From the NCBI GenBank assembly GCA_026391945.1, contig JAPLDA010000007.1, positions 1 through 49,038 of the forward strand: a DNA stretch of 49,038 nt, written 5' to 3'. Below the pieces are notes generated by a model that searched no databases, was not told where the DNA came from, and saw only the letters and a program-made list of their open reading frames with translations. Positions 18,807 through 48,254 of the stretch are shown piece by piece (positions within the stretch are counted from its first letter, which is position 1; every line of letters begins with the position of its first letter). Source of the DNA: Bacteroidota bacterium. GTDB taxonomy: Bacteria; Bacteroidota; Bacteroidia; AKYH767-A; 2013-40CM-41-45. A program made the translations under genes and the position numbers.

Positions 18807-18836
18807 TTGCTTTTCTCTTTTCAATGTCTATTTTTG
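18807..18836 (+). promoter_or_regulatory. Promoter for the GH3-family gene
   Basis: TTG at 18807-18809 and TATTTTTG at 18829-18836 are separated by 19 bases and match the Bacteroidota promoter pattern fully at the second box. The TTG that an open-frame reading would take as a start codon is thus better seen as the -33 box. Confidence 0.6.
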
Positions 18837-18863
18837 TTCACATCACACATTGAACAGAAACGG

Positions 18864-30694: not shown

Positions 30695-30752
30695 ACAGGT
30701 ACGAATGTCAGATCTTAAAATTTAATTTTCATAAAACAATTCGACGCAGGTG

Positions 30753-31983: not shown

Positions 31984-33303
31984 ATGAAAGACTTTTTAAC
32001 CGACGCTGCTTTGCCATTCTGTAAGGGATGCGGTCATAACCACGTCGCCGTGAATACGGAAAAAGCATTGCAGCTTCTGGGATACGATCCTTTGAATGTG
32101 GTGCTGGTCACGGATATCGGTTGTCACGGCATCATCGACAAATCTTTTTTAACACATACGGTTCACGGGCTTCATGGCCGTTCCGTTGCGCTGGCAACGG
32201 GTATTTCAGCAGCGCTGAACGATCCCGGAAAAAAAGTGATTGTATTCATCGGCGACGGCGGAGCAACGATCGGCATGCAACATTTGATTGATGCGGCACA
32301 CAATGGTTTTAACATGACCGTTGTGATTCATAATAACATGCTCTATGGAATGACCGGAGGGCAACCCAGTGAATTCACGCCTTCCGGATTTAAAACTCCG
32401 ACCTTGCCCGAAGGTGGAACGAAAACCGGTTATGATATCTGTAAAATCATTTCCGCTGTGGATGGTGTGTCGTATGTAAGCCGCCTCGAAGGGATTTCTG
32501 ATTTTTCAGAACCGTTAGCAGAAGCATTTTCAAGAAAAGGATTCTCATTGGTTGAAGTGATGGAAATCTGTCCGAGCTATGGAGTAAAATCAAATCCAGG
32601 GATGAAACTTTCCAACGTGGTGGAAAACGCAGGGCTCTCCATAAAAAAATTCGTTGACAAAGAAACCGAAGTATATAAAACCGGAATTAAAAAAGATCTT
32701 CAGCCGCTTTTCAGCGAGAGCGATGCCATTGTAACTTTATTTCCGACGAAGCTGGAAAAGCCGGTTCGCCTGATGCTGTGCGGCTCTGCCGGTGAAGGAG
32801 TCCAGGCCGCTGCAGAATTTTTATTGAAGGCGGGAATGACTTCCGGATTAAACGGAATCAAAAAGGGAAGTTATCCTGTTACCGTTGGAGTAGGATTTTC
32901 AGCAGCGGAAGTGATCCTGTCGTCGGAAGAAATTTTATATACCGGCTCTCCCAATCCCGACATTCTTTGTGTGACCTCTGCCGATGGACTGGAATACGCC
33001 CGTAAAACGCTTTCCGGAATGAAAGGCGGAAAATTATTCATCGATAGTTCTCTCCAGGTTCCGGAAACGAAAGCAGAAATAATTTCTTTTCCGTTTCGCG
33101 AAAGGGGCGGAGCAAAAAACTCTTCGATCTACGGCATCTTTTATTTGCTGATGAAAACAGGAATGTTTCCGATGGAAGCACTGCTTGGTGTGTTCAACGA
33201 AAATAAAATTGCGAAAAAATTTGATGTGGATAAAATGTTTCAGTTGCTGAATGAGCCGTGGGCTGAAGGAATGAGTGATAAAAAAATGACTGTATCAAAA
33301 TGA
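31984..33303 (+). CDS. 2-Oxoacid:ferredoxin oxidoreductase, beta-gamma fusion
   Basis: This 439-residue protein joins a thiamine-diphosphate-binding beta subunit (about 1-250) to a gamma-type domain (about 260-425). The beta part has the cluster cysteines in FCKGCGHN, DIGCHGIID and EICPSYG. Its thiamine site is GDGGATIGMQH (starts near residue 90) with NNMLYGMTGGQ. The gamma part begins LMLCGSAGEGVQAAAEFL and ends with a short helical tail. No ferredoxin-like delta domain is present, so electrons should leave the single [4Fe-4S] cluster straight to a soluble ferredoxin. The stop overlaps the next start (ATGA at 33300-33303), which points to translational coupling with the thiolase-partner gene. 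Confidence 0.87.
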   Translation: MKDFLTDAALPFCKGCGHNHVAVNTEKALQLLGYDPLNVVLVTDIGCHGIIDKSFLTHTVHGLHGRSVALATGISAALNDPGKKVIVFIGDGGATIGMQHLIDAAHNGFNMTVVIHNNMLYGMTGGQPSEFTPSGFKTPTLPEGGTKTGYDICKIISAVDGVSYVSRLEGISDFSEPLAEAFSRKGFSLVEVMEICPSYGVKSNPGMKLSNVVENAGLSIKKFVDKETEVYKTGIKKDLQPLFSESDAIVTLFPTKLEKPVRLMLCGSAGEGVQAAAEFLLKAGMTSGLNGIKKGSYPVTVGVGFSAAEVILSSEEILYTGSPNPDILCVTSADGLEYARKTLSGMKGGKLFIDSSLQVPETKAEIISFPFRERGGAKNSSIYGIFYLLMKTGMFPMEALLGVFNENKIAKKFDVDKMFQLLNEPWAEGMSDKKMTVSK

Positions 33304-34700
33304 GTGATATCCAATCATACGGAATTGCCTGGCCTCGTTTCAGGATAGAGGATAGCATGCTGAATCCATCAACAGGAAGGAAAGGCGTTACCAGGGCCAT
33401 TTGTTTTTCCGATGAAGATGTGATGACACTTGCTTTTGAATCGTCGATAAATTGTCTGGCAAAATCTCAGATCTCGGATCTAAAATCTCAAATTGATGGT
33501 GTTTTCTTTGCCACCTCATCACCTGTTTTCAGGAACCGGTACCATGCCTCTTTTCTGGCTGACTTATTAAATCTTCCCCAGGGAATTTTGGCTGTTGATT
33601 TTTTAAACTCATCCCGCAGCGGAACGGACGCCTTGTTATTGGCCAATGAGTTGGTGGATACAGGTAAATACCGGAACATCCTGGTTGTTGCTTCTGATGT
33701 TGATTTCCCTTCCATCGGGAAAGAAACAGCTACGTCATTTGGCCACGCAGCATGTTCGGTTTTATTGAGCCGTGAAAAAGGAATGGCGAAGATCACTTCA
33801 GCACAATCATTCAGTTCATCGGTGGCGGAAGAATTTTCTTACAAGAAAAAAAACATTCAGCAGGATCCGAGGTTCAGTCGTGATGCAGGATTTAAAACCA
33901 ACCTGGCTTCAGCTTTGAAAAAATTTGTTTCAACTCCGGCATCGTTTGATGCGGTGATACTGAATTCGCTTTACGCCCGTTTGGCGGGAGCCGTTTTTGC
34001 AAAAGCCGGATTTGAAGAAAGGCAATTTACAAAAGATTCTCTCAGTCAGAAAATCGGAAACACCGACGCTGTTCACGCCCTACTTCTTTTGATGAATGAA
34101 ATGGAAAATGAAAAGAAAAATATTTTATTGGCTGACTATACAAATGGCACCAATTTTTTTGAAATCAAAAATCACTGTTCGCTGACTGAAAAAATTTTAC
34201 AAAACCAACTGCCGGAGTTTGAATTGATAAATTCCTACCAGGATTATTTACTGCTGCGTAAAGCCGGGAATTTCGAATCATTAAAATATGAAACCAAAGA
34301 AATGTTCTCTTCCGAGATGATGTATGAACGTGAGAAGGAATCATTGATTTACCTCGAAGGATTGAAATGCGCTGGCTGCGAAACCGTTTATTACCTGGAG
34401 ACTACACGTTGCAAAAAATGCATGGGCGAAAAATTCTCCGGAGTTCAATTGTCAAAAACCGGAACCGTATATGCCTTCACGCATGAACATTATTTCCCGT
34501 CGTCCTTTCCTCCGATCACCATGGCCGTGGTTGACCTGGATGGAGGAGGAAGAATAACCGTTCAGCAAACCGATACGATGTACCCGGAGAGAAATAAACT
34601 GGAGATCGGTTCAAGAGTAAAACTGGTTTTGAGAAAGATGATAGAGAATGGTTCGAAGCCTGATTACTTCTGGAAAATTGTTCTGATTAATAATTCTTAA
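33300..34700 (+). CDS. HMG-CoA-synthase-like protein fused to DUF35/OB-fold zinc domain
   Basis: This 466-residue protein has a thiolase-superfamily HMG-CoA-synthase-like N-terminal part (about 1-330) and a C-terminal DUF35 module with a rubredoxin-like zinc ribbon (CAGCETVYYLETTRCKKC) and an OB fold (GTVYAFTHEHYFPSSFPP). In the synthase part, the place of the catalytic cysteine reads FLNSSRSGTDAL, with no Cys, so it is probably not a condensing enzyme. DUF35 partners are known to bridge thiolases and HMG-CoA synthases, and the toluene-pathway thiolase BbsAB also needs an OB-fold partner. It most likely forms a complex with the thiolase encoded nine bases downstream. A short in-frame duplication (33461-33490) adds KSQISDLKSQ to a loop. 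Confidence 0.8.
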   Translation: MSDIQSYGIAWPRFRIEDSMLNPSTGRKGVTRAICFSDEDVMTLAFESSINCLAKSQISDLKSQIDGVFFATSSPVFRNRYHASFLADLLNLPQGILAVDFLNSSRSGTDALLLANELVDTGKYRNILVVASDVDFPSIGKETATSFGHAACSVLLSREKGMAKITSAQSFSSSVAEEFSYKKKNIQQDPRFSRDAGFKTNLASALKKFVSTPASFDAVILNSLYARLAGAVFAKAGFEERQFTKDSLSQKIGNTDAVHALLLLMNEMENEKKNILLADYTNGTNFFEIKNHCSLTEKILQNQLPEFELINSYQDYLLLRKAGNFESLKYETKEMFSSEMMYEREKESLIYLEGLKCAGCETVYYLETTRCKKCMGEKFSGVQLSKTGTVYAFTHEHYFPSSFPPITMAVVDLDGGGRITVQQTDTMYPERNKLEIGSRVKLVLRKMIENGSKPDYFWKIVLINNS

Positions 34701-34709
34701 CCCTTCATT

Positions 34710-35894
34710 GTGAATTCTAAATTGAATGACATAGCGATCATCGGAATTGGTGTTACAAAATTTGGTGAACTCTTTCATCAAAGTTACGATGACCTCGTTC
34801 GTGATGCAGCCATGCAGGCGGTAAAGGATGCCGGGATTTCTTTGGATGACATTGGCGCCGCCTGGCTCTCGACTGCTTTCCCGGAGATCGGTGTCTTTAA
34901 AGGAAGGAGCGGGATGGATTTGTGTGAACCGCTTTCCTTGTACAATATTCCCGTGACACGTGTTTCCAATTTTTGTGCTTCGGGTGCTGACGCCATCCGC
35001 AACGCCGTGAATTCATTGCGCGCAGGTGAATGCGATGTGGCCCTGGCATTGGGAGTTGAGAAACTCCGCGACCGGCAGCCGCAGGACAGCATTGTGAAAA
35101 TGATGGTCGAATACGGTCATCCTTTTCTACAGAAGGGATTTACTGCCGCCGGAACATTTGCCGTTTACGCCAATCGCATGATGAAAGAATACGGAGTGAC
35201 ACGCGAAGACATTTCATCGATCTCCGTGAAGAATCATTTTCATGGGGCGATGAATGAAAAAGCACATCATCGCAAAGCATGTTCCATTGAAGAAGTCATG
35301 GCATCACCGATGGTTTCCAACCCGCTTACAGTCATGGATAGCTGCCCGACTACCGATGGCGCTGCCTGTGTGATCATGGTTCGTGCTGAGGATATTGACA
35401 GAAAAAAGCACCGCCCGGTTTATATTAAAGGTGTCGGACTTTCCATTTCCACCGGCTGGGATTTGCCGTTCTTCGATCCGAACCATGATTTTCTTTCGTT
35501 CGAAGCAACACGCAATGCAGCGAAGATGGCCTATCAACAGGCAGGCATTATCAATCCCATTGAAGAAATTGATTTGATCGAAGTGCACGATTGTTTTTCA
35601 ATCGTTGAACTACTGACGTATGAGGATTTGGGATTATGCAAAACGGGTGAAGCAAAGGATCTGATACGCGGAAAAGAAACGCAGCTCGGAGGAAAAATTC
35701 CTGTGAATGTGAGTGGCGGATTATTGTCGTGCGGACATCCGGTCGGTGCAACAGGAATACGAATGGTTGTTGAAGTCGCCAATCATCTTCGCGGAAACGC
35801 CGGGGAACGGCAGGTGAACAATGCAAAGAGAGGACTGACCCATAACATCGGCGGGCCCGGTGCGATTGCATCGGTGATCATTTTAGAAAATTAA
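34710..35894 (+). CDS. Thiolase (SCP-x/lipid-transfer type)
   Basis: This 394-residue thiolase begins at GTG 34710; no closer ATG fits the conserved start DIAIIGIGVTKFGE. The nucleophile is Cys89 in VSNFCASGADAI. The second half has VHDCFSIVELLTYEDLGL and GGLLSCGHPVGATGIRM, whose Cys and His complete the active site, then NIGGPGAIASVIIL. It is the SCP-x-like subfamily found with DUF35 partners, not the classical FadA type. In the proposed route it cleaves 2-aminobenzoylacetyl-CoA with CoA to give anthraniloyl-CoA and acetyl-CoA, the last step coded here. The substrate is inferred from the neighbouring genes. Confidence 0.88.
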   Translation: MNSKLNDIAIIGIGVTKFGELFHQSYDDLVRDAAMQAVKDAGISLDDIGAAWLSTAFPEIGVFKGRSGMDLCEPLSLYNIPVTRVSNFCASGADAIRNAVNSLRAGECDVALALGVEKLRDRQPQDSIVKMMVEYGHPFLQKGFTAAGTFAVYANRMMKEYGVTREDISSISVKNHFHGAMNEKAHHRKACSIEEVMASPMVSNPLTVMDSCPTTDGAACVIMVRAEDIDRKKHRPVYIKGVGLSISTGWDLPFFDPNHDFLSFEATRNAAKMAYQQAGIINPIEEIDLIEVHDCFSIVELLTYEDLGLCKTGEAKDLIRGKETQLGGKIPVNVSGGLLSCGHPVGATGIRMVVEVANHLRGNAGERQVNNAKRGLTHNIGGPGAIASVIILEN

Positions 35895-36015: not shown

Positions 36016-36390
36016 ATGAAAGTATTATTAGCAAAACCCGGGTTAGACGGACATGATGTGGGAGTGAAAGTGCTGGCTCATGCCATCAAAGCGGCCGGTC
36101 ACCAGGTCATTTACACAGGTCTTCGAAAATCCATTGAAGAAATTGTTCAGAAAGCAAAAGAGGAAAAACCGGATGTGATCGGGTTGTCTATTTTATCAGG
36201 AACTCACCAGGTGCTCTGTGAAAAAATGAATGATGAGATGAAAAAGCAAGAGGTGGAAATTCCCTGGATCGTTGGCGGAAATATTCCCGCTGAAGATGTG
36301 ACTGAACTTAGAAAAACCGGGGCACGGGAAGCTTTCCCTACCGGGACACAGATTGATGCAGTGGTGAAGTACATTGGAGAATTGAAATAA
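36016..36390 (+). CDS. B12-binding (small) subunit of a carbon-skeleton mutase
   Basis: This 124-residue stand-alone cobalamin-binding domain has the DxHxxG motif (Asp11-His13-Gly16 in GLDGHDVGVKVL; His13 is the lower cobalt ligand), SIL in LSILSGTH, and the VGGNIP loop. It is the separate small subunit for the mutase encoded directly downstream, an arrangement seen in isobutyryl-CoA, 2-hydroxyisobutyryl-CoA and archaeal methylmalonyl-CoA mutases and in the two-subunit mutase of the indoleacetate pathway. No MeaB/ArgK-type chaperone gene is present in the window. Confidence 0.92.
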   Translation: MKVLLAKPGLDGHDVGVKVLAHAIKAAGHQVIYTGLRKSIEEIVQKAKEEKPDVIGLSILSGTHQVLCEKMNDEMKKQEVEIPWIVGGNIPAEDVTELRKTGAREAFPTGTQIDAVVKYIGELK

Positions 36391-36454
36391 TGTCTATGTG
36401 AATTTACAAAGTTGTATTGCTTCTGTAAACCTGATTAACAATTTTTTTAAAAGA

Positions 36455-38074
36455 ATGGAAACAAAAACTGAAATTAAAAAGGAAGGAATCAAAAAAGTTT
36501 TTCTTGAGTCCGGACTTGAAGTAAAGCCCCTATATACTTACGAGGATGAGTATGGTAAAAATCCGGGCTTCCAGGAGGAACTGCCGGGACAATTTCCTTT
36601 TACCCGTGGCATCCACCCGCTGATGTACCGCAAGCGCCCGTTCACGATTCGCCAGTATGCCGGCTTTGCGTCGCCTGAAGAAACCAACGAACGTTTTAAT
36701 TTCCTGATTAAAAATGGCCAGACAGGTTTGAATGTGGCGTTTGATTTATCCACTCAATGTGGACTCGATTCAGATGATCCGCGTGCTCTCGGTGAAGTAG
36801 GAAGAGTAGGAATGGCGATTGATACGCTGGAAGATTTTGAAATCGCATTCAACGGTATCGACCTTGACAAGATTACGGTTTCTTTAACGATCAACGGTTC
36901 TGCGATCGTTCTGATGGCGATGTATTTTGCACTGGCAGAGAAAAGAGGATACGATTTAAAAAATCTTCGTGGCACGGCGCAGAACGATATCCTGAAAGAA
37001 TTCATCGGGAGAGGGACCTGGATTTTTCCCGTCGACAAATCCGTGAAACTCGTGGTGGATACCATTGAATACTGCGCGAAACATGTTCCCAAATATTCTC
37101 CGGTGAGTGTATGCGGTTACCACATCCGTGAATCGGGTGCGAATCCTGTGCAGGAAATGGCGTATGCATTTTGTATTGCCAAAGCGTATTCCGATGAAAC
37201 GATGAAACGCGGAATCGACATTGATGAATTCGCTTCCCGTCTTTCTTTCAACTTTGATATCTACGGAAATTTATTTGAGCAGATAGCAAAGTTCCGTGCC
37301 GGAAGAAGATTGTGGGCGAAGATCATGCGCGAAGAATACCAGACAAAAAAGGAAGAATCGTGCTGGATGCGGATGATTGCAGGCGGCGGCGGCGCCGGTC
37401 TTACCAAAGAGCAACCCGAAAACAATATTGTGCGAACGGCTTATTATGCTTTGATCAGTGCATTGTCGGGAACGCAAACCATGGCGTTGTGTACATACGA
37501 CGAAGCCTTCACCATTCCCACAGAGAAATCAGCTGAGATCGCTCTTCGCACGATGCAGATCATGATGAATGAAATGGGTATCTGCGATACCGTTGATCCG
37601 CTCGGTGGTTCCTATTATGTTGAATCGCTTACGAATGAAATGGAATTGGCCATACGAAATGAAATGATGAAAGTGGATGAGCAGGGAGGAATTATCAACG
37701 GCGTTGCAACAGGCAAGGTCCAGGAAACGGTTTCCAGGCAGGCATACGAGCGCGAGAAGGCCATGCAGGATGGAAAGATTTTGAAAGTTGGGTTGAACTG
37801 TTTTAAAAAAGAAGAAGAGAAACGCTCGGTGGAATTTCATCCGTACAATGTGGATGCTGCCACCAGGCAAGTGGAGAAGTTGAAAAAGAAACGAGCTGAA
37901 AGAAACAATGAAAAGGTAAAACAACTTTTAGCTGGAGTACGTGATGATGCGAATAAAAATTTAAACATGCTGACTTCCATCATCGCAGCGGTGAAGGAGT
38001 ATGCAACGGTAGGCGAAATTATTGATGTGCTGAAAGAAGTGTATGGTGAATACCAGGAGCCGATATTCTTTTAG
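36455..38074 (+). CDS. Coenzyme-B12 acyl-CoA mutase, large subunit (carboxylated substrate)
   Basis: This is the TIM-barrel subunit of a methylmalonyl-CoA mutase-type enzyme, 539 residues from ATG 36455. A GTG at 36398 would give a longer, less likely start. Three residues align by spacing with the Propionibacterium enzyme. Tyr68 (RQYAGF) is the counterpart of Tyr89, Arg186 (GRGTWIFP) of Arg207, and His223 (GYHIRESG) of His244. Tyr89 and Arg207 bind the substrate carboxylate, and mutases for non-carboxylated substrates change them. This enzyme should therefore act on a carboxylated thioester. The pocket segment STQCGLDSD (99-107) differs from the PTHRGYDSD of methylmalonyl-CoA mutase, which could make room for an aryl group. 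Proposed reaction: (2-aminophenyl)succinyl-CoA to (2-aminobenzyl)malonyl-CoA. Confidence 0.9.
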   Translation: METKTEIKKEGIKKVFLESGLEVKPLYTYEDEYGKNPGFQEELPGQFPFTRGIHPLMYRKRPFTIRQYAGFASPEETNERFNFLIKNGQTGLNVAFDLSTQCGLDSDDPRALGEVGRVGMAIDTLEDFEIAFNGIDLDKITVSLTINGSAIVLMAMYFALAEKRGYDLKNLRGTAQNDILKEFIGRGTWIFPVDKSVKLVVDTIEYCAKHVPKYSPVSVCGYHIRESGANPVQEMAYAFCIAKAYSDETMKRGIDIDEFASRLSFNFDIYGNLFEQIAKFRAGRRLWAKIMREEYQTKKEESCWMRMIAGGGGAGLTKEQPENNIVRTAYYALISALSGTQTMALCTYDEAFTIPTEKSAEIALRTMQIMMNEMGICDTVDPLGGSYYVESLTNEMELAIRNEMMKVDEQGGIINGVATGKVQETVSRQAYEREKAMQDGKILKVGLNCFKKEEEKRSVEFHPYNVDAATRQVEKLKKKRAERNNEKVKQLLAGVRDDANKNLNMLTSIIAAVKEYATVGEIIDVLKEVYGEYQEPIFF

Positions 38075-38082
38075 CCTCGCTA

Positions 38083-39300
38083 ATGAACAACAACAGGATG
38101 ACAGCAAAACGAATGACAGTTTTAAGTTTGGAACAGGCTCTCGCACTTCCCTTCGCCACACAGCGAATGGTGCACATCGGGTGGAGAGTCATCCGCATAG
38201 AAAATCCCCCTGATGAAAACGGCGGAAATGCCGGCGACCCCAACCGTTACATCGGTGCTGATTTGGGTTATCCTGATTTACACTCGTATTACATCGCTCC
38301 GAATATCGGAAAGGAAGCCATCACCATTAACCTGAAGAAAAAAGAAGGACAAGCCTTGCTGAAAAAAATTATTAAGGAGTTGAAGGTCGATGTTTTCCTC
38401 TGCAACACGCTTCCAAAAAGATACAAGCAGCTGGGAATTGATTTTGAAACGTTGAAGGAAGCAAACCCGAACCTGATCTGGTGCGGAATTTCAGCCATGG
38501 GTCCGGGATATCCTGATCATGCCGGGTACGATCCCGCTTTGCAGGCGTTGATGGGCTATTCTTATTTAACCGGTGAGCCTGATGGAAAGCCCGTCCCATG
38601 CGGGATTCCAATCATCGATCTCAAAGCCGGCGACGAAGCCTTCACACAGGTCATTCTCGCCATGATGGAAAATAAAACCGGTGGAAAAGAAATTCATATC
38701 TCCATGGCTCAATGTGCAGCTTCGTGGCTGATCACCGCTTTGCCGCAACTGGCCTTTGTAAAAAATGATAACGAAATATTTACACGCAGCGGAAACGAAC
38801 ACCGGAGTTTTATTCCGTGCAATGTGTATCCAACCAAAGACGGAATGGTGTACCTCGCCATAGGAAATGATCTGCAATGGGCAAAGTTCACTGCACTGAA
38901 GGGATTTGAATCTCTTGGAAATACTTCCCGCAAAACAAACCAGGGAAGAATGGATGATAAGGAAAATATTTATATGGAAATTGGTGAGCAAACAAAAAAA
39001 TATTCCACCCGGGAATTTGTCGACCTGTGCCTGTGCATCAACCTTTCCGTTTCTCCGGTGAATACGATCAAAGAAGTTTCATCGCTGGAATTTATTTCAA
39101 AAGAATTGTTGAAGACCCAATTGTCGGACGGCAAAACGGTTTCACTGTTTCCATCTTCCGTTGAAACTGAATTTCTGAAAAACAATCACCACACACTAAC
39201 CTGCGCTCCACGCCTGGGAGAGCAAAATGAAAAAATATTTTCTGAAGCTGGATTTCGGAAGGAAGAAATCAAATCAATGGAAATTGAAAATATTATATAA
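38083..39300 (+). CDS. Family III (CaiB/BaiF-type) CoA-transferase
   Basis: This 405-residue CoA-transferase has the standard N-terminal fold (VLSLEQALALPFATQRMVHIGWRVIRIE) and a catalytic aspartate, Asp179, in GIPIIDLKAGDEAF. AGYDPALQALMGYSYLTGEP is the usual block just before it. Family III enzymes move CoA between carboxylates by way of an aspartyl thioester. In auxin degraders a family III transferase (IaaL) forms the CoA ester of the arylsuccinate. The same role is proposed here, and the donor could be indoleacetyl-CoA from IorA/IorB or succinyl-CoA. It starts eight bases after the mutase, as expected for consecutive steps. Confidence 0.9.
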   Translation: MNNNRMTAKRMTVLSLEQALALPFATQRMVHIGWRVIRIENPPDENGGNAGDPNRYIGADLGYPDLHSYYIAPNIGKEAITINLKKKEGQALLKKIIKELKVDVFLCNTLPKRYKQLGIDFETLKEANPNLIWCGISAMGPGYPDHAGYDPALQALMGYSYLTGEPDGKPVPCGIPIIDLKAGDEAFTQVILAMMENKTGGKEIHISMAQCAASWLITALPQLAFVKNDNEIFTRSGNEHRSFIPCNVYPTKDGMVYLAIGNDLQWAKFTALKGFESLGNTSRKTNQGRMDDKENIYMEIGEQTKKYSTREFVDLCLCINLSVSPVNTIKEVSSLEFISKELLKTQLSDGKTVSLFPSSVETEFLKNNHHTLTCAPRLGEQNEKIFSEAGFRKEEIKSMEIENII

Positions 39301-39339
39301 CAACCGGATGACCATGAATGATTGCTAAATGACTCTTTG

Positions 39340-42300
39340 ATGTTAGAACGCACCATAAAAATACTCACGGCTCATTCCTCTCCTCACAAAACCTGCGTGA
39401 TGGGAAATGAAGGAATTGCCCGAGCTGCGCTGGAAGCCGGTGTGAATGGTGTGTTTTCTTACCCGGGAACTCCGTCGACGGAAATTTCAGAAATCTTCAA
39501 TTTCATCAATGGTTTTCAAAACAGTCATTCCAATAAGTTAAAATATCCTGAGCTCACTTCCGACCCGGTTTATTTTGAATACAGCATCAACGAAAAAATT
39601 GCTTTGGAAAAAGCGATTGCATTTTCCATCGGCAACCGCAGCGCCATGTGTGTGATGAAAAATGTTGGGATGAATGTGGCCAGCGACCCGTTGATGTCCG
39701 TGACGTATCAAACCATTGGCGCGCCATTGGTGATCGTTGTTTGCGACGATCCCGGCTGTCACTCCAGTTCCAATGAACAGGATTCACGGTACTGGGGCCG
39801 CATGGCTTCTGTGCCGGTCTTTAATCCCGCCACGCCTGCCGATGCTTTTGAAATGATCAAACAGGCGTTCGAACTTTCAGGAAAAATAAAATTGCCGGTG
39901 ATCGTACGCACCACCACGCGTGTTTCACATACACGCGGAATTGTTTCGTACGGAAACATCGTGCATGGGAATCGCCAGCCGAATTTTGAAAGGTTGCCTG
40001 AGCACATCAACATTCCTGCACGAACTGCTGCGGCGCATGCACGGCTGCTTCATAAACTGGAAGACAAACAGGTGTTGTCGCTGCTCGCAGCGAACACCAG
40101 GCTGGTTCTGAAAGGAAGTAAAGCCAAACTCGGAATCATCAGCAGCGGTGTGGCGACATCCTACGTCATTGAAATTCTTCACCGGTATGGCGTGACCGAA
40201 AAAATAAAATTGCTCGACATCGGAATGATTCATCCTTTCCCGGAAAAAGAAGTGCTGAGATTTTTGAAGGATGACATGGAGCAATACCTCGTGCTGGAAG
40301 AACTGGATCCGTTGATGGAGAATGAAGTGAGAACCCTTGCTCAGAAAAGCAACATTCAAAAAAATATTTTCGGAAAAGGTTATTCGGGGCTTGTTTCCAC
40401 AGGAGAATTCTCCATGGATTTGCTGACAGCCGTTTTGGAAAAATTCCTCCATGCATCTTTTAATAAAGACAAAAATATCCCGCTTGAAAATTCTGAAAAA
40501 TATTTTCAGAACCTGCCTCCGCGTCCTCCTGTTTTATGCGCAGGATGCCCGCACCGCGCAACCTTTTACCTGCTCAAACTTGCCATTCCAAGGGAACAAA
40601 GCGAATTGATTTTATGCGGCGACATCGGTTGTTTCGGCCTTGGTGCATTGCCTCCGTTAAAAATGATCGATACGATCAACCACATGGGAATGAGCATCAG
40701 CATGGCGCAGGGACTGTACGAAGCGTTTCACTCAGCCGGGGAAAATAAAAAAACAGTGGCGTTGGTTGGTGACGGAACATTTTTTCATTCCGGGCTTTCC
40801 TCTCTCGTCAACGCAGTTTATACACGCGCCAATATCCTCGTCGTGATTTTTGATAACCGGACCATCGGGATGACAGGGCATCAATCTCATCCCGGTGCAT
40901 CATCACTTCCGAAATATCATGAGATCGATATTCCTCCGCTCCTGAAGGGATTGGGCATTGAGATGGTTGAAACCATCAACCCGTTTGACCTGAAGGAGAG
41001 CATTGCCAAGCTCGACAAAGCCATGGCGCACGATGGTGTTTCTGTGATCATCTCAAAGGAGCCTTGCATTTTTGTCCATGATTTCAGGGAGAAGGGCGTC
41101 AGGAAAATGCAGATCGCAGTGGATCCGGAACGTTGTAATTCCTGCGCCAACCATGAAGATGTTGCTCTTTCCTGTTCTCGTTGTTATGCGCCGAAAAATA
41201 ATTTGTCGAGGGCGAAAGCAAAATTGCTTGCTGAAATTTCTATTCCTGGCAACGAACAACTTTGTCCTGCTAACATTTGCAATCACGGTTTTTTTAATTC
41301 CATCCTGGAAGGGGATTATAAGTCGGCCGTGGAAATTGTCCGTGATAAAATGTTGTTCGCGCGAACCTGCGGGGATATTTGTCATCGTCCATGCGAACTT
41401 TTTTCAAATGAGTCGAGTGTGGTTCCGATAAAAAAATTGAAGCACCTGGTATCCGCCGTTGATGATAACTACCGCGATTTTTCTGTGCCTGTTAAGAGAA
41501 CGCAGAACGCCCGTAAAAAAAATAAAAAAATTGCCGTCATCGGTGCAGGCCCGGCCGGTCTGAGTGCGGCATACGACCTGGCCCAGGTTGGATACGAAGT
41601 GGAAATATTTGAAAAAGAAAATAAAGCGGGAGGCATGGTAGCTCATGCCATTCCCGGTTTCAGGATGGACAAGACGGCTTTCGATTACGAAGCCATGCAG
41701 TTGGAAAAAATGGGAGTGAAATTTCATTTCAACATTTCTCTCGGAAAAGAAATATGGCTGGAGTCGTTGACAGAAGAATATGATGCCGTCATTCTTGCTG
41801 TTGGAATGAATAAATCGAAAACACTCGAGGTCATTGAAAAAAATATCCCGCCGGAAAAAAGAACGGATGCGCTTTTATTTTTGAAATCATTTAACCGGGA
41901 GGAAGAAACCATCAAACCAGGCTCATCCATTTTAGTAATTGGCGGAGGGAACAGTGCGATTGATGCAGCTCGTTCCGCCAAAAAAATGAGTGTAAAAAAT
42001 CAGGTGCTTGTTTCCTGTATTGAAACCCTGGATAAGATGCCGGCTTTCGCCGAAGAGGTGAGGCATGCGATGGAAGAAGGTATTGAGTTTCTTCATGACA
42101 GCGTGGTAGAAAGTTGTTCGCTTGACACATCCGGAAAAATACAGTGTTCGCTTCATGCATTTGATGAAAAAACATTTCTGCAACAGGTGTCGTGTGATTA
42201 TATCGTGACGGCAATCGGTCAGGTGGCTGAAGCACTTGTTATCGAAAAATTATCTTCAGATGAAAACCTGAGAGTCATCAGTAAAAACAGCCACACGGGA

Positions 42301-42750
42301 TACAAAAATGTATTTGTTGCCGGCGACATCAACGCCGGAAATCACATGAGCGTGATTGGCGCCATCGCTTCAGGAAAAAAAGCAGCGGTTGCTGCCAGGC
42401 AATTGCTCGAAGAGTATCCATACGCATACGAAGGGGAAAAAGCATTGGGACGATTGAATACAAATTCTCCTTTGCGAAATACGAATCAAAAAGAATTTAC
42501 GAATGAGGAGGGAGAATTGGGCGATCCGTATTTCGTACGGTCAGAAATTGAGCGATACAATCTTTTTCAATCCTGCCAGAAATGCAATCATTGCATTGAC
42601 AATTTCGGTTGTCCGGCCATGGTGAAGGTGAATGGGAAAGTACAGATTGATATGGCTCGCTGCAACCTGTGTGGATTGTGCATTGATGTTTGTCCGAACA
42701 ATGCCATTCATTGGGTGGATGCTGAAGAAAAAACCGGGATGACTTCATAG
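39340..42750 (+). CDS. iorA: Indolepyruvate oxidoreductase alpha subunit with inserted GltD-like NAD(P) module
   Basis: From the ATG at 39340 the protein is 1136 residues, against about 600-650 for ordinary IorA. Residues 1-590 are IorA: MGNEGIARAALEAGVNGVFSYPGTPS, the CAGCPHRATF motif, and the thiamine site GDGTFFHSGLSSLVNAVYTR (from 478). An insert of about 450 residues follows that resembles glutamate synthase small subunit. It has a cysteine-rich start (CGDICHRPCE, near 678), FAD motif IGAGPAGLSAAYD (from 734) and NAD(P) motif IGGGNSAIDAARSA (from 867). The IorA two-cluster ferredoxin domain (CQKCNHC ... CNLCGLCIDVCP, about 1078-1117) comes last. It should turn indolepyruvate, CoA and NAD(P)+ into indoleacetyl-CoA, CO2 and NAD(P)H. 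The linker before the ferredoxin part contains a hairpin repeat (42475-42535). Confidence 0.9.
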   Translation: MLERTIKILTAHSSPHKTCVMGNEGIARAALEAGVNGVFSYPGTPSTEISEIFNFINGFQNSHSNKLKYPELTSDPVYFEYSINEKIALEKAIAFSIGNRSAMCVMKNVGMNVASDPLMSVTYQTIGAPLVIVVCDDPGCHSSSNEQDSRYWGRMASVPVFNPATPADAFEMIKQAFELSGKIKLPVIVRTTTRVSHTRGIVSYGNIVHGNRQPNFERLPEHINIPARTAAAHARLLHKLEDKQVLSLLAANTRLVLKGSKAKLGIISSGVATSYVIEILHRYGVTEKIKLLDIGMIHPFPEKEVLRFLKDDMEQYLVLEELDPLMENEVRTLAQKSNIQKNIFGKGYSGLVSTGEFSMDLLTAVLEKFLHASFNKDKNIPLENSEKYFQNLPPRPPVLCAGCPHRATFYLLKLAIPREQSELILCGDIGCFGLGALPPLKMIDTINHMGMSISMAQGLYEAFHSAGENKKTVALVGDGTFFHSGLSSLVNAVYTRANILVVIFDNRTIGMTGHQSHPGASSLPKYHEIDIPPLLKGLGIEMVETINPFDLKESIAKLDKAMAHDGVSVIISKEPCIFVHDFREKGVRKMQIAVDPERCNSCANHEDVALSCSRCYAPKNNLSRAKAKLLAEISIPGNEQLCPANICNHGFFNSILEGDYKSAVEIVRDKMLFARTCGDICHRPCELFSNESSVVPIKKLKHLVSAVDDNYRDFSVPVKRTQNARKKNKKIAVIGAGPAGLSAAYDLAQVGYEVEIFEKENKAGGMVAHAIPGFRMDKTAFDYEAMQLEKMGVKFHFNISLGKEIWLESLTEEYDAVILAVGMNKSKTLEVIEKNIPPEKRTDALLFLKSFNREEETIKPGSSILVIGGGNSAIDAARSAKKMSVKNQVLVSCIETLDKMPAFAEEVRHAMEEGIEFLHDSVVESCSLDTSGKIQCSLHAFDEKTFLQQVSCDYIVTAIGQVAEALVIEKLSSDENLRVISKNSHTGYKNVFVAGDINAGNHMSVIGAIASGKKAAVAARQLLEEYPYAYEGEKALGRLNTNSPLRNTNQKEFTNEEGELGDPYFVRSEIERYNLFQSCQKCNHCIDNFGCPAMVKVNGKVQIDMARCNLCGLCIDVCPNNAIHWVDAEEKTGMTS
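42475..42535. repeat. Hairpin repeat embedded in the iorA reading frame
   Basis: CGAAATACG (42475-42483) has its perfect reverse complement CGTATTTCG at 42527-42535, with ACGAAT and TTACGAATGA units between. In frame it encodes RNTNQKEFTNEE and neighbouring residues in the linker between the GltD-like and ferredoxin domains. It belongs to the same family as the intergenic copies. Confidence 0.65.
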
Positions 42751-42753
42751 CAA

Positions 42754-43350
42754 ATGGAAAACAGATTTAAGATATTGATAACGGGAGTAGGCGGTCAGGG
42801 AATTGTTTACCTCACCAACATCCTTGTTGAAGCTGCCATGCTTTCTGAAATTCCTGTCAGCGTGAGTGAGATCCACGGCCTCTCCCAGCGTGGCGGAGTC
42901 GTGACCGCCGGAATCGGTTTGGGTGAACATTGCACGGGGTTTATTGGTAAAGCCGATGTTGATTTCCTGATCGGGTTGGAACCGCTGGAAACACAACGAT
43001 GCCTTCCATCCCTTCATAAAAACAGCAGCGTTATTTTCGGAGACCATCACATCCAGCCATATTCAGTGAATGCCCAGATGGCTGAATATCCTGATGTAAA
43101 ATCTTTTGCCGGTTACCTCGCGGAGCAATGCCGGGAAGTCGTTTTCATTGAGCAATTTCCAACCGGTATCGATTCGGTACTACATAACATTTTTCTTTTA
43201 GGAAGAGCTTCTGTGATGAAAGCATTCCCGTTGACGACAGAAAAACTTATAGAAGCCATTCGTTCAACTGTTACCGGAAGTTACCGGGATAAAACACTTG
43301 ACGTATTCCGGCAAGGTGTGGAGTTTAAGTTGAATAAGACACCGGTGTAA
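42754..43350 (+). CDS. iorB: Indolepyruvate oxidoreductase beta subunit
   Basis: This is the 198-residue gamma-domain-type partner of IorA. It begins FKILITGVGGQGIVYLTNIL, the family's signature, followed by VSVSEIHGLSQRGGVVTAGIGLG. It starts three bases after the iorA stop. IorA/IorB is best known from archaea and anaerobes, where it oxidises aryl pyruvates formed by transamination of aromatic amino acids. Here it provides the link between tryptophan and the indoleacetate steps. Confidence 0.92.
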   Translation: MENRFKILITGVGGQGIVYLTNILVEAAMLSEIPVSVSEIHGLSQRGGVVTAGIGLGEHCTGFIGKADVDFLIGLEPLETQRCLPSLHKNSSVIFGDHHIQPYSVNAQMAEYPDVKSFAGYLAEQCREVVFIEQFPTGIDSVLHNIFLLGRASVMKAFPLTTEKLIEAIRSTVTGSYRDKTLDVFRQGVEFKLNKTPV

Positions 43351-43360
43351 TCAATCTTGT

Positions 43361-43906
43361 ATGAGAGAACGAATGAAAAAAGTAAAGTCAGTTCAATACC
43401 CGCAGCATGAAATATCATTCATCCTGAATGGAAAAAAAGTTTCCTGCAAAACAAAGGGTTCGGCCGTATTGCTGGATGTGATCCGCGATGTGTTCGAATT
43501 GAAAGGAACAAAACCGGGTTGCCACGAAGGAGAATGCGGTGCCTGCACTGTTTTGGTGGACAATGTACCCGTGAACTCCTGCCTGTTCCTCGCTGTGAAT
43601 GCTGATGGAAAAAATATCCTCACGGTTGAAGGATTGTTGCATGCCGACGGAACGCTGGATCCCGTGCAGGAATCATTGGTGCAGAATGGTGCTGTGCAAT
43701 GTGGTTTCTGTTCTTCCGGGATGGCCATGTCGTTAAAAGCGCTGGTGCATCAATATGAAAATGCTCATCCCGTTGCTGGTGAAATCAAAAAAGGAATTCC
43801 GTCACGGGATGAAATTAAAAAACACCTCGAAGGAAACCTTTGCCGGTGTACGGGTTATGTGAAAATACTGGATGCTGCTGAAAAATTGTTTTTGAATAAT
43901 GAGTAA
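43361..43906 (+). CDS. Molybdenum hydroxylase, iron-sulfur subunit
   Basis: This is the small [2Fe-2S] subunit of a xanthine-oxidase-family enzyme, 181 residues. The plant-type cluster is held by Cys54, Cys59, Cys62 and Cys74 (GCHEGECGACTVLVDNVPVNSC region). The second cluster is held by Cys114, Cys117, Cys161 and Cys163 (QCGFC and NLCRCTGY). It is about 20 residues longer than most relatives through an N-terminal extension and a charged stretch before the last pair. A second ATG at 43373 could also be the start. It passes electrons from the molybdenum centre to FAD in the three-gene enzyme at 43361-47188, proposed to hydroxylate indoleacetate at C2. Confidence 0.92.
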   Translation: MRERMKKVKSVQYPQHEISFILNGKKVSCKTKGSAVLLDVIRDVFELKGTKPGCHEGECGACTVLVDNVPVNSCLFLAVNADGKNILTVEGLLHADGTLDPVQESLVQNGAVQCGFCSSGMAMSLKALVHQYENAHPVAGEIKKGIPSRDEIKKHLEGNLCRCTGYVKILDAAEKLFLNNE

Positions 43907-43918
43907 AGTTTTTGTCCA

Positions 43919-46294
43919 ATGAAAAAAAATTTAAAAGTCATCGGCAAACCAATTCCTAAACACGATGCCCGTTCACGCATCACAGGTGAAGCGGTATATG
44001 GCCATGATATCGTTTTGCCTCACATGCTTCACGGTGTCATCCTGCGAACGGAACATCCTTCAGCCATCATCGAATCCATTGATGTATCGGCAGCCAAAAA
44101 ACTTCCCGGCGTTGTTTGTGTGATCACTGCTGACGACGTGGACGTGAACAACATCAGCTACAAACGCGATCATCCCATACTTAAAAAAAACGAAGTGAAT
44201 TGCATCCGCGATGAGATTGCCGCCGTTGCCGCCGAGACTAAAGAAATTGCCAGGCAGGCATTGAAACTCATCAAAGTCAAATACAAAATCAGGAAGGGGA
44301 TTTACGATCCGCATGAAGCACTGAAGAAAGATGCTCCTCAAATAAATAAATTCATAGGCGGAAAATTCTCAAATAAAAATATCGCAGAAACATTTCACTA
44401 CGAACATGGGAATCTCGCTGAAGAAAAAAAGAAGAGTGCTGTTACCATCACTCGAAGGTTTACGCTCCCAAGGGTAACACATGCCTGCATGGCTACCAGC
44501 AACATCACGGCTCACTACACCAAAACGGACAAAAAGCTTTTGCTTTACAGTTCCACGCAGGTGCCTTTTTTGTACCAGCGTGATATGGCGCATGCACTTA
44601 AAATGAATCCGTCCGACATTCGAATCATACAACCCGTGATCGGCGGTGGATTTGGAAGTAAACTGGACATGTATCCGTTTGAACCGATCTGCGCATTGCT
44701 GTCAATAAAAACCGGGAGACCGGTGCAGATCCTTTATTCACGCGAAGAAGAATTCATTGCCTCTCCCACACGGCAACCTATGATTATTGATTTGACAGTA
44801 GGCGCCGATGCAAAAGGGAATTTTACTTTCAGGGAAATTAATATAATAAAAGACAACGGGGCTTATACTTCGTGGGGCGCCACTACTCCTTTTGTGATCA
44901 TGCAGGCGTTTTCTTCACTCTATAAAATTCCTGCCTGCTGTTTTGACGCCATGGCCGTTTATACCAACAATGTTTTTGCCGGTTCTTTCAGGGGATATGG
45001 AAATCCGCAGGCGACTTTCGCGTTGGAACGAATGATTGACTTGCTTGCCGATGAACTTGGAATGGGCAAAGCGGAGATTCGTTTATTGAATGCCAATGAA
45101 AAAGGAGAAGTCACCGGGCAGGGATTGCATTACGAAACCTGCGGGCACAAAGAATGTTTGGAAACGGTGATTGCAAAAAGTCATTTTAAGAAAAAGAAAT
45201 CTCCGGAAAAAAGTGGAAGATACAAACGGGGAATCGGCCTTGCCTCGATGTTGCATGTTGGCGGCGGCGCAAAAATATACCGTTCGGATGGTTGCGGCAC
45301 CACTGTGAAAATTGATCCTTATGGATTTTGCACCGTCATCACCGGCTCGACGGAAATCGGGCAGGGTTCAGAAACGGTGTTGGCCATGATGGCTGCCGAA
45401 GAGTTGGGAATTGATTTGAATAAAATAAAAATCATCAACACCGATACCGATGTGAAACCTTGGGACGTCGGGGTTCATGCCTCGCGTACGAGTTTTGTCG
45501 CCGGGAACTCATTGCTGGGCGCAATAAAAATTCTGAAAGAGAAACTCAATAAGAAAGCCGCTCAACTTCTCAATACCAATGATTCGTATTTTGATTATGA
45601 AAACGGAAATATTTATTTGCAAAATACGAATGGAGGCGAACCTGCGAATGCGAAAAAAAATTCGGTGTTAAAGAAAAATTCAGAAATACCGGATTCGTCT
45701 TTCGTAAAGTTAGATAAAGTCGTGCGCGAAATGCATTTTGGAGAACCCAACGAACTGGCCATTGCATCTTATTTCTATGAACCTTCCAGCAAGTTCCAGG
45801 ATAAAACATTCAAAGGAAATGTTTCAGGAACGTATGCCTTCGCTTCACAATCGATCGAGGTGGAAGTTGACACCTATACCGGCAACGTAAAAGTCCTCGA
45901 CATTTATGTGGCGCAGGATGTGGGTAAAGTGCTCAACCCGCTTTTGCTTGACGGACAAATTGAAGGAGGAATATTGCAGGGTGTCGGTTATGCATTGTCA
46001 GAAGAGTTGCTGGTGAAAGAAGGAAGAATATTGAATCCGAATTTTCACAATTACAAAATGCTCACGGCTGCCGATATTCCAAACATTCATTTTTATCCTG
46101 TGGAGACCAACGACAAGCAAGGCCCTTATGGTGCGAAAGGAGTAGGGGAAGCCCCGCTGATTCCTACCGCTGCTGCCATTGCCAATGCCGTGTGCAATGC
46201 ATTGGCCATCGAACTGCTGGATTTACCTGTTACACCTGAAAAAATTTTGAAAGCGCTTGCGGAAAAAGAGAAATTGAAAAAACAAACCGTTTAG
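43919..46294 (+). CDS. Molybdenum hydroxylase, molybdopterin-binding catalytic subunit
   Basis: This 791-residue large subunit of a xanthine-oxidase-family dehydrogenase starts KVIGKPIPKHDARSRITGEAVYGHD. It has the molybdopterin blocks IGGGFGSKLDMYPFEPI, FRGYGNPQATFALE (near 357) and GSTEIGQGSETVLAMMAAEELG, and the catalytic glutamate Glu744 in GAKGVGEAPLIPTAAAI. These enzymes insert oxygen from water, so no O2 is needed. Indoleacetate to 2-oxoindoleacetate is the reaction expected from the cluster. Xanthine or aryl-CoA substrates are less likely given the neighbours. A loop of about residues 555-600 holds a hairpin repeat (45582-45631) and further related sequence, and looks like an insertion. 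Confidence 0.92.
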   Translation: MKKNLKVIGKPIPKHDARSRITGEAVYGHDIVLPHMLHGVILRTEHPSAIIESIDVSAAKKLPGVVCVITADDVDVNNISYKRDHPILKKNEVNCIRDEIAAVAAETKEIARQALKLIKVKYKIRKGIYDPHEALKKDAPQINKFIGGKFSNKNIAETFHYEHGNLAEEKKKSAVTITRRFTLPRVTHACMATSNITAHYTKTDKKLLLYSSTQVPFLYQRDMAHALKMNPSDIRIIQPVIGGGFGSKLDMYPFEPICALLSIKTGRPVQILYSREEEFIASPTRQPMIIDLTVGADAKGNFTFREINIIKDNGAYTSWGATTPFVIMQAFSSLYKIPACCFDAMAVYTNNVFAGSFRGYGNPQATFALERMIDLLADELGMGKAEIRLLNANEKGEVTGQGLHYETCGHKECLETVIAKSHFKKKKSPEKSGRYKRGIGLASMLHVGGGAKIYRSDGCGTTVKIDPYGFCTVITGSTEIGQGSETVLAMMAAEELGIDLNKIKIINTDTDVKPWDVGVHASRTSFVAGNSLLGAIKILKEKLNKKAAQLLNTNDSYFDYENGNIYLQNTNGGEPANAKKNSVLKKNSEIPDSSFVKLDKVVREMHFGEPNELAIASYFYEPSSKFQDKTFKGNVSGTYAFASQSIEVEVDTYTGNVKVLDIYVAQDVGKVLNPLLLDGQIEGGILQGVGYALSEELLVKEGRILNPNFHNYKMLTAADIPNIHFYPVETNDKQGPYGAKGVGEAPLIPTAAAIANAVCNALAIELLDLPVTPEKILKALAEKEKLKKQTV
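45582..45631. repeat. Hairpin repeat embedded in the molybdenum-subunit reading frame
   Basis: ATTCGTATTTTG (45582-45593) has its perfect 12-bp reverse complement CAAAATACGAAT at 45620-45631, with a 26-base loop. Related units follow up to about 45715 (TGCGAATGCGAA, GATTCGTCTTTCGTAAAG). The stretch encodes a polar, Asn/Lys-rich loop. Confidence 0.75.
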
Positions 46295-46297
46295 TTT

Positions 46298-47188
46298 ATG
46301 GATTTTAATATCATCACACCGGTTACGGTTAAGGAACTTCTTGGAACCATGAAAAAGTTTCAAAAGAAAAAATTTCGTTTTGGAGCCGGATGCACCGATT
46401 TATTGATGGAGCTGAAAAGGAACCCGGAAGAAAATTTAACGGTCATTAATTTATCGCGTGTAAAAGATCCCCTGTTTACCGGGATAAAAAAATCAGCAGC
46501 AGGTTTCCGGTTCGGGGCGATGTTAACGGCGCATAAAATAATGGTGAACGAAGAGATCAGGAATAATTTTAAAGTCCTTCACGAAGCCGCAGAAAGCCTT
46601 GCTTCCACGCAGATCCGGCAGGTGGCAACCGTTGGCGGAAACGTGTGCACGGCGTCGCCATCCGGAGATATGGCCTGCGCATTGGTTGCGCTGGAGGCGG
46701 ATTGTGAAATACTTGGCATCACCGGAAAAAAAGGAATGGTTCCGATTACCGGATTTTTTACAGGCGTCAGAAAAACTGTTCTGAAAAAAAATGAGTTGCT
46801 GTGCGGAATTTTTGTGCCGGCGAAGAATAAAAAATCCAAAAACATTTATTCAGGTTTCGTTAAAATCGGGACCAGGCAGTCGATGGAATGTTCCGTAGTG
46901 TCGCTGGCTTATCATATACAGGCAGATGCAGGCGGGAAAATTATTCATGCCGGTGTGGCCATCGGCTCTTCGGCACCAACGATTCGTTTTGCAGAAGATG
47001 CTGCTCATTACCTGGTAGGAAAAAAGTTTGAAAATATTTCGGTGAATGAAAGAAAAGAATTTGCAGCAAGAGTGCTGACGTATGCAACTCCAATCGACGA
47101 CCTGAGGGCGACGGCCTGGTACAGGAAGGAAGTATTGTTCAATATCAGCAAAGCCATATTTGAAAATGATGCCAAAAACAGTCGGTAG
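46298..47188 (+). CDS. Molybdenum hydroxylase, FAD subunit
   Basis: This 296-residue medium subunit of the CoxM/XdhB type binds FAD and hands electrons to the final acceptor, probably NAD+. Landmarks are KFRFGAGCTDLLMELKRN (N-terminal FAD contact), RFGAMLTAHKIMVNEEI, and IRQVATVGGNVCTASPSGDM (about 105-124, the second FAD motif). A typical C-terminal CoxM-like domain (GVAIGSSAPTIRFAEDAAHYL) ends it. It starts three bases after the catalytic subunit, completing a three-gene small-large-medium order. Confidence 0.92.
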   Translation: MDFNIITPVTVKELLGTMKKFQKKKFRFGAGCTDLLMELKRNPEENLTVINLSRVKDPLFTGIKKSAAGFRFGAMLTAHKIMVNEEIRNNFKVLHEAAESLASTQIRQVATVGGNVCTASPSGDMACALVALEADCEILGITGKKGMVPITGFFTGVRKTVLKKNELLCGIFVPAKNKKSKNIYSGFVKIGTRQSMECSVVSLAYHIQADAGGKIIHAGVAIGSSAPTIRFAEDAAHYLVGKKFENISVNERKEFAARVLTYATPIDDLRATAWYRKEVLFNISKAIFENDAKNSR

Positions 47189-47249: not shown

Positions 47250-48254
47250 ATGGAGACGAATTTGGCAGTGAAATTATCAGCAAACGAAAACTGTTACGGT
47301 TGTTCACCGAAGGCGCTTGAAGCCATCCGTGCGAAAGTCGGAGGTGTTTCTTTTTATCCGGAGGTGAATCCTGTTGCATTGAAAGAGAAACTTGCGGAGA
47401 AATACGGGGTGACTACAGGAAATATTATTGTGGGAGCAGGATCCGTAAGAATCATCGATGGACTCATCCAGACTTTTGTGAAAGAGGGAGAAGAAGTCCT
47501 TACGTTTGAAAAAAGTTTTGTTGCCTACGGACAGCTTTCCGGATTCCATCAACGCACCTGCCGGTTTGCCCCGCTAAAAAATTTTCGTTGTGTCCCGGAA
47601 AATCTTCTTCCCTTTATCAGCGACAAAACTCGTTTAATTTTTATTGCCAACCCGAACAACCCGACCGGTACGATGATCTCTCATGCCGAACTGGAAAATC
47701 TGCTGAAGACGATTCCCCGGAATGTCATCGTCACCATTGACGAAGCATACTCGGAGTATGTCACGGATGCTACTTTTCCTGATTCCATCCTCCTGCAAAA
47801 AAAATATCCGAACCTTGTCATCCTGCATTCTTTTTCAAAGATATACGGGTTGGCAGGATTGCGGATCGGTTATGCCATCATGGATGATAAACTTGCAGCC
47901 CGGATGGCAGAAGGACAAATTCCATTTTCATTGAATTACCTTTCATCGGCAGCTGCGCTTGCTGCGCTGGAAGATGAATCGTTTATCATCCAATCGGCTA
48001 GGGTCAATGCAGATGAACGCAATGTGTTGTACCGTGAATTGAATAGTCATGGAATTCATGTGTTGCCTTCACAATCTAATTTTATGTACATGTGGTTTGA
48101 GGAGGAAGGCGAAAAGAAAAAAGTGTACGATTTGCTTTTTAAAAACGGAATCCTTGTTTGTGATATGAAAATATTCGGACAGGAGAATGCATTGAGGATT
48201 ACCGTTGGCGATCACGAAACCAATAATAAAATGGTTAGGATCTTAACGGAATGA
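47250..48254 (+). CDS. HisC-like PLP aminotransferase (probable tryptophan/aromatic aminotransferase)
   Basis: This 334-residue fold-type I aminotransferase belongs to the histidinol-phosphate aminotransferase branch. The cofactor lysine is Lys197 in LHSFSKIYGLAGLRIGYA. NPNNPTGTMISHAELE and TIDEAYSEYV bind PLP, and the closing arginine is in ALRITVGDHETNNKMV. No histidine-biosynthesis gene is near. Members of this branch often act on aromatic amino acids, and its place after iorAB and the molybdenum enzyme suggests it converts tryptophan to indolepyruvate at the head of the route. HisC proper remains possible. It begins 61 bases after the FAD subunit and is the last plus-strand gene in the window. 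Confidence 0.85.
   Translation: METNLAVKLSANENCYGCSPKALEAIRAKVGGVSFYPEVNPVALKEKLAEKYGVTTGNIIVGAGSVRIIDGLIQTFVKEGEEVLTFEKSFVAYGQLSGFHQRTCRFAPLKNFRCVPENLLPFISDKTRLIFIANPNNPTGTMISHAELENLLKTIPRNVIVTIDEAYSEYVTDATFPDSILLQKKYPNLVILHSFSKIYGLAGLRIGYAIMDDKLAARMAEGQIPFSLNYLSSAAALAALEDESFIIQSARVNADERNVLYRELNSHGIHVLPSQSNFMYMWFEEEGEKKKVYDLLFKNGILVCDMKIFGQENALRITVGDHETNNKMVRILTE

Follow-up and report, generated by a model that had tools for sequence, protein, structure and literature searches.

An IorA-type oxidoreductase subunit with an internal GltD-like FAD/NAD(P) module and its predicted role in indolepyruvate oxidation in Bacteroidota

Introduction

Can the alpha subunit of an indolepyruvate oxidoreductase (IOR) carry its own outlet to NAD(P)+? 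The question is raised by a gene on contig JAPLDA010000007.1 of a Bacteroidota bacterium (assembly GCA_026391945.1), which we analyzed from position 1 to position 49,038 (the window, 49,038 nucleotides). The gene, at 39340-42750 of the + strand, encodes an IorA-like protein containing a glutamate-synthase-like (GltD-like) FAD/NAD(P) module. The initial annotation of this DNA proposed that the module had been inserted before the ferredoxin domain of IorA, and that it would either render a ferredoxin enzyme NAD(P)-linked or allow electron splitting. We find that the insertion is genuine and recurs in other genomes. From its sequence, the protein is probably (roughly 0.6) the alpha subunit of an indolepyruvate:NAD(P)+ oxidoreductase with a built-in electron outlet, which would make indoleacetyl-CoA.

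Results

The gene occupies a single uninterrupted open reading frame (ORF) at 39322-42750 (+). We took as its start the ATG at 39340, the point from which homologues align; residue numbers count from this methionine, and the protein has 1136 amino acids. The range for canonical IorA proteins that include a ferredoxin domain is 579-610, and the protein is thus almost twice the usual length, as first noted. Searches with NCBIfam profiles matched TIGR03336 (IorA) to ORF residues 23-619 (E 2e-182) and NF009410 (the GltD-ferredoxin family, PRK12771) to ORF residues 634-1131 (E 6e-83). Pfam recognized TPP_enzyme_C, POR_N, Pyr_redox_2, and Fer4. The IorA thiamine-diphosphate core spans residues 1-590 (39340-41109), and is followed by the N-terminal Fe-S segment of the GltD-like module (residues 591-712; 41110-41475), its FAD/NAD(P) Rossmann pair (residues 728-1026; 41521-42417), and a 2[4Fe-4S] ferredoxin domain (residues ~1075-1125; 42562-42714). 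Full IorA and GltD-like homology therefore share one frame, and the module lies between the thiamine core and the C-terminal two-cluster domain, in agreement with the initial annotation.

The reach of the NF009410 match to residue 1131 suggested another arrangement, in which a whole GltD-ferredoxin protein was fused to the C terminus and replaced the IorA ferredoxin. Ferredoxin profiles ruled this out. Fused C-termini (n = 35) scored a median of 49.3 bits with the canonical IorA ferredoxin profile versus 20.6 bits with a profile of the GltD-ferredoxin C terminus, and so the GltD-like module is an insert and the C-terminal ferredoxin is IorA's own. Ten other fused genomes were also searched, and in most of them the IorA profile matches the same long frame twice (~2-560, then ~550-595), which further bears out the claim that the module was inserted before the ferredoxin domain. 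A partial duplication may have accompanied the joining here, because the IorA match ahead of the insert already includes the opening CxxC of the ferredoxin domain.

We considered whether a sequencing or assembly artefact had joined two genes. The same fused protein is present in 4 of 60 related genomes (61-76% identity), one copy being truncated where its contig stops. When 84,980 species genomes were scanned with two peptide patterns specific to close relatives, the fused protein turned up at 39 loci, and two further weak matches were irrelevant; more distant fused forms could have escaped these patterns. The four relatives reappear among the 39 loci and were counted once. At 37 loci (34 of them long, the other three truncated at contig ends), one frame spans the junction. 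The other two, L065 and L068, are split in frame, as an artefact might be, but both breaks fall inside the GltD part rather than at the junction. These homologues rule out an artefact, and no assembly error of the kind that the initial annotation had flagged is present.

The loci are mostly from Bacteroidota, including Saprospiraceae and Flavobacteriales, with single loci labelled Ignavibacteriales, Armatimonadetes, Proteobacteria, and Candidatus Hatepunaea. Among 299 genomes drawn from the phylum of genome G258, only G258 carries the fused form at the threshold used. In a maximum-likelihood tree of thiamine cores, 33 fused proteins form one clade apart from 24 canonical ones, with 100/100 support. 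The simplest reading is one fusion event, apparently followed by transfer between phyla; for single cases, the phylum labels could also reflect binning errors in metagenome-assembled genomes. We found no description of an IorA-GltD fusion of this architecture in the literature searched. Most other Bacteroidota IorA matches in our sample (e.g., L094-L122) have ~540 amino acids and are without the C-terminal ferredoxin domain.

We aligned 34 fused proteins, 51-76% identical to the window protein. The FAD motif (GAGPAG; 41542-41559), the NAD(P) motif GGGN-x-A-x-D (here GGGNSAID; 41941-41964), and a second FAD motif, VFVAGD, vary only slightly among them. Pyr_redox_2 was found in 34 of 34 proteins, in keeping with adrenodoxin-reductase-like FAD and NAD(P) domains, and Fer4_20 in 33 of 34; the window protein scores 23.2 bits with Fer4_20, below the gathering score of 25.8. 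Near its start the module has eight invariant cysteines (C599, C602, C612, C642, C647, C677, C681, and C685; 34/34), and a further eight are invariant in the ferredoxin domain, giving a total of 16 candidate Fe-S ligands. By analogy with dihydropyrimidine dehydrogenase (DPD), the eight module cysteines could ligate two [4Fe-4S] clusters. The cysteine-rich segment and the two nucleotide-binding motifs are thus where the initial annotation placed them, and all the aligned proteins keep them. Such conservation at these identities also speaks against an ordinary ferredoxin-linked IOR in which the insert is a structural remnant or has a different reaction to serve, a reading that we regard as highly improbable.

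The NAD(P) domain offers a hint of cofactor preference. After its second strand, Nfn, Stn, and PRK12771 relatives (e.g., 4ylf and 8oh5) carry YRR[T/D]...MPA. At the same position the fused proteins have V-x-V-S-C-I-E....MPA (42004-42045), in which the arginines are lost and an acid is gained. Because of these changes relative to the NADP-type GltD relatives compared, NAD+ may be favored over NADP+.

We predicted the structure of the window protein with AlphaFold2, using an alignment of 34 sequences. Residues 14-584 of the model match PFOR/OFOR structures with Z ~30 (e.g., 7plm_A; root-mean-square deviation [rmsd] 5.6, 514 aligned). Residues 635-1086 match NfnABC (9bov_A; Z 31.7, rmsd 2.9, 416 aligned) and also NfnI (5jfc_L; Z 29.7), GltD, and DPD. 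The matches listed by Foldseek and VIA are mainly to the two large folds and do not bear on the ferredoxin end. Confidence in the model is high for the GltD part but not for the junctions or the ferredoxin end.

The GltD FAD might be envisaged as a site of true flavin-based electron bifurcation, as the closest solved folds belong to Nfn and Stn, which are bifurcating proteins. However, non-bifurcating GltD and DPD match the fold nearly as well, and the protein has only one flavin module. No NfnA-like second flavin with a [2Fe-2S] cluster was found in the protein or the neighboring proteins scanned, a search that was not made genome-wide, and no high-potential partner was seen in the operon. 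Moreover, the oxidation of 2-oxoacids by NAD+ is already downhill. Bifurcation is therefore very unlikely.

The gene context points to a substrate. The operon in the window corresponds to what we take to be the set of genes for anaerobic indoleacetate degradation in Aromatoleum. Directly downstream of the fused gene lies the gene for the gamma/beta partner subunit IorB (42754-43350; PF01558, E 7e-20; its IOR_beta match is below cut-off). IorB follows the fused gene at 31 of 33 fused loci, and at the remaining two the contigs end first. The gene order is then, all on the + strand and by family match, the [2Fe-2S], Mo, and FAD subunits of a molybdenum hydroxylase (43361-43906, 43919-46294, and 46298-47188) and a HisC-type aminotransferase (47250-48254; TIGR01141 above cut-off), a candidate tryptophan transaminase that is kept at the cluster end in most loci.

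Upstream, also on the + strand, the cluster starts with a 3-hydroxyacyl-CoA dehydrogenase/enoyl-CoA hydratase fusion (22999-25017). Next come hydantoinase A-like and B-like (lactamase) subunits (25020-27146, caprolactamase alpha family, E 2e-199; 27232-28902, caprolactamase beta family, E 1e-120), of which the first is a candidate ring-opening enzyme that would act in an iaa-type step. These are followed by a RidA-family protein (28995-29429), an IaaF-type decarboxylating acyl-CoA dehydrogenase (29543-30694), and a second 2-oxoacid oxidoreductase, made up of a KorA-like alpha subunit (30750-31877; OAFO_sf, E 2e-68) and a beta subunit fused to gamma (KorB-gamma; 31984-33303). An HMG-CoA-synthase-like protein fused to a BbsA/DUF35-like Zn-ribbon domain (33300-34700) and a thiolase (34710-35894) precede the IaaGH-like B12-binding and large subunits of an acyl-CoA mutase (36016-36390, TIGR00640, and 36398-38074, TIGR00641, both above cut-off) and an IaaL-like type III CoA-transferase (38083-39300; PF02515). 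This iaa-like gene set is largely conserved around the fused gene in most of the 39 loci.

In Aromatoleum, the products of the iaa operon include IaaB, IaaL, IaaGH, and IaaF, and IaaF orthologues have GGG in place of YEG (PMC8360864). The window acyl-CoA dehydrogenase has GGG, as do 13 of 13 relatives, which provides an independent test of the pathway assignment. The CoA transferase III, the B12 mutase pair, and the hydantoinase-like pair were recognized by family match, without direct comparison with the Aromatoleum proteins. While Aromatoleum activates indoleacetate to indoleacetyl-CoA with the CoA ligase IaaB (PMC8360864), family scans of the neighboring proteins recognized no CoA ligase in the cluster. 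Related OFORs are known to convert indolepyruvate to indoleacetyl-CoA (PMC13290082). We infer that IorA-GltD and IorB would supply indoleacetyl-CoA from indolepyruvate, in place of a ligase.

Several neighboring genes were read by eye. At the proteobacterial locus L066, an apparent TrpB-like gene and an apparent B12-mutase GTPase gene adjoin the fused gene. A CysK/CysM-like pyridoxal phosphate (PLP) enzyme gene, not found in the window, lies between the genes for the Mo and FAD hydroxylase subunits at L040:7175-8065 and L056:15501-16391, and unnamed ORFs of similar size occur in L032, L033, L038, L042, L045, and L058. Upstream of the indoleacetate cluster, the window contains a gene resembling GH3 (auxin-responsive) amido synthetases (18807-20387), perhaps a coincidence. 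Elsewhere in the window, a topoisomerase I-like gene at 487-2993 is split into two overlapping frames (487-1236 and 1233-2993), possibly reflecting a frameshift.

We next considered where the electrons could go in the cell. The genome encodes NuoF and COX1-type terminal oxidases, so NADH has an outlet; RnfC was not found above cut-off in this genome. The genome also encodes a class I ATP-dependent benzoyl-CoA reductase (C61:44000-63500, L158), with BcrC, BcrB, and BcrD above cut-off, a BcrA-like ORF below cut-off, and a 6-hydroxycyclohexene-carbonyl-CoA dehydrogenase above cut-off. Among 61 relatives, BcrB is above cut-off in 5 of 5 fused versus 7 of 56 unfused genomes (Fisher p 1.3e-4, uncorrected for phylogeny). 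A BcrAD/BadFG double-activase of ~1465-1475 amino acids with DUF2229 is encoded directly upstream of the fused gene at L035:3711-8105 (by Pfam) and L036 (by size and position).

As benzoyl-CoA reductase requires reduced ferredoxin (PMC9973337), its presence in fused genomes makes ferredoxin as a second exit a serious rival. The enzyme would then deliver both reduced ferredoxin, for benzoyl-CoA reductase, and NAD(P)H, with the GltD module as a ferredoxin/NAD(P) valve. The Bcr genes of this genome and the association of BcrB with the fusion are consistent with such a dual outlet, and the same role has been proposed for an NADP-dependent 2-oxoglutarate oxidoreductase in Azoarcus evansii, which a passage in PMC8163825, citing Ebenau-Jehle 2003, reports to serve electron transfer for ring reduction. 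On the other side, the separate KorAB of the cluster could provide the ferredoxin, and among ten further fused genomes BcrB is above cut-off in six but not in the other four. We consider a dual outlet a tentative alternative, less probable than an NAD(P)-linked enzyme. A single-chain enzyme that splits each electron pair of indolepyruvate between NAD(P)+ and low-potential ferredoxin for benzoyl-CoA reductase seems doubtful.

Discussion

We favor an NAD(P)-linked enzyme because the FAD and NAD(P) motifs are conserved, the structure matches, the gene context fits, and NAD(P)-coupled relatives are known. Of the two roles in the initial annotation, a link to NAD(P) is what motifs, structure, and context suggest; electron splitting fares poorly, given the one flavin module and the lack of an NfnA-like partner beside it. 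In the proposed mechanism, IorA-GltD and IorB would decarboxylate indolepyruvate, derived from tryptophan, at thiamine diphosphate to form indoleacetyl-CoA. Electrons would reach the FAD of the GltD-like module by way of the IorA ferredoxin clusters and the module's two predicted Fe-S clusters, and FAD would donate a hydride to NAD(P)+, with NAD+ the more likely acceptor. Indoleacetyl-CoA would enter an iaa-type pathway (Mo hydroxylase, lactam opening, CoA transfer, B12 mutase, IaaF, and β-oxidation) leading to 2-aminobenzoyl-CoA. The architecture, the conserved motifs, the single clade, the operon, the IaaF signature, and the benzoyl-CoA reductase genes are observed, whereas we infer the substrate, the electron route, and the preference for NAD+.

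Several observations weigh against this interpretation. The window protein scores 607.7 bits with TIGR03336, below the curated cut-off of 650.9, and 279 bits with NF009410, below the curated cut-off of 516. The fused proteins of ten other genomes likewise fall below the TIGR03336 cut-off; three of these genomes also encode a standalone IorA that scores above it. The first eight cysteines are spaced unlike those of canonical GltD, with ~30 extra residues. The AlphaFold2 model has a mean predicted local distance difference test score of 77.7 and a predicted template modeling score of only 0.54, and so the domain arrangement and electron path are tentative. Lastly, fused genomes carry an ATP-dependent benzoyl-CoA reductase that uses reduced ferredoxin, so an enzyme that passed every electron to NAD+ would squander their low potential.

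If NAD(P)-linked, the protein would be a prokaryotic 2-oxoacid oxidoreductase with an NAD(P) outlet inside the catalytic subunit, derived from one fusion and found mainly in uncultured Bacteroidota. If it were instead a splitter, tryptophan oxidation would pay for the reduction of its own ring, with a thiamine enzyme as the electron splitter. Whether electrons go to NAD+, ferredoxin, or both is now a testable question of enzymology. The iaa-type cluster and class I benzoyl-CoA reductase together predict complete anaerobic breakdown of tryptophan and auxin, which, to our knowledge, has not been described in Bacteroidota.

How does the fusion compare with known systems? It has in common with canonical IorA (TIGR03336) the thiamine core, the IorA-type 2[4Fe-4S] domain, and the IorB neighbor; canonical IorA is without the FAD/NAD(P) module. 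Pyruvate:NADP+ oxidoreductase (PNO) and separate-subunit systems already exemplify 2-oxoacid oxidoreductases that have an NAD(P) outlet of their own; the novelty here lies in a GltD module placed inside IorA. Judging from family names, phenylglyoxylate:NAD+ oxidoreductase (Pad) is likewise an NADH-linked 2-oxoacid oxidoreductase of aromatic catabolism, but its subunits are separate. The A. evansii enzyme is also an NADP+-coupled 2-oxoacid oxidoreductase in an organism with benzoyl-CoA reduction; unlike the window fusion, this KorABC enzyme reportedly has a separate NADP-binding subunit and 2-oxoglutarate as substrate. In Bacteroidota (L009/L029 and L012/L028), an unfused GltD-ferredoxin gene beside KorA and KorB similarly pairs a GltD-like FAD/NAD(P) and Fe-S unit with a 2-oxoacid oxidoreductase, but as a separate gene, with its own ferredoxin type and with Kor rather than Ior.

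PNO of Euglena and Cryptosporidium (PMC6993867) is also a 2-oxoacid oxidoreductase fused to an NAD(P) module, but it is eukaryotic, uses pyruvate, and carries a P450-reductase module rather than an internal GltD; Pfam found no P450-reductase/flavodoxin domain, the mark of PNO, in the window protein or the relatives scanned. DPD (PMC8097209) combines a GltD-like module, a second catalytic center, and a C-terminal 8Fe ferredoxin domain in one chain, although an FMN pyrimidine-reducing domain replaces the thiamine core and the domain order differs. The Aromatoleum iaa operon (PMC8360864) shares IaaL-, IaaGH-, and IaaF-type genes and the GGG motif of IaaF with the window cluster, and differs in how the pathway begins: IaaB activates indoleacetate, whereas IorA-GltD and IorB would make indoleacetyl-CoA directly.

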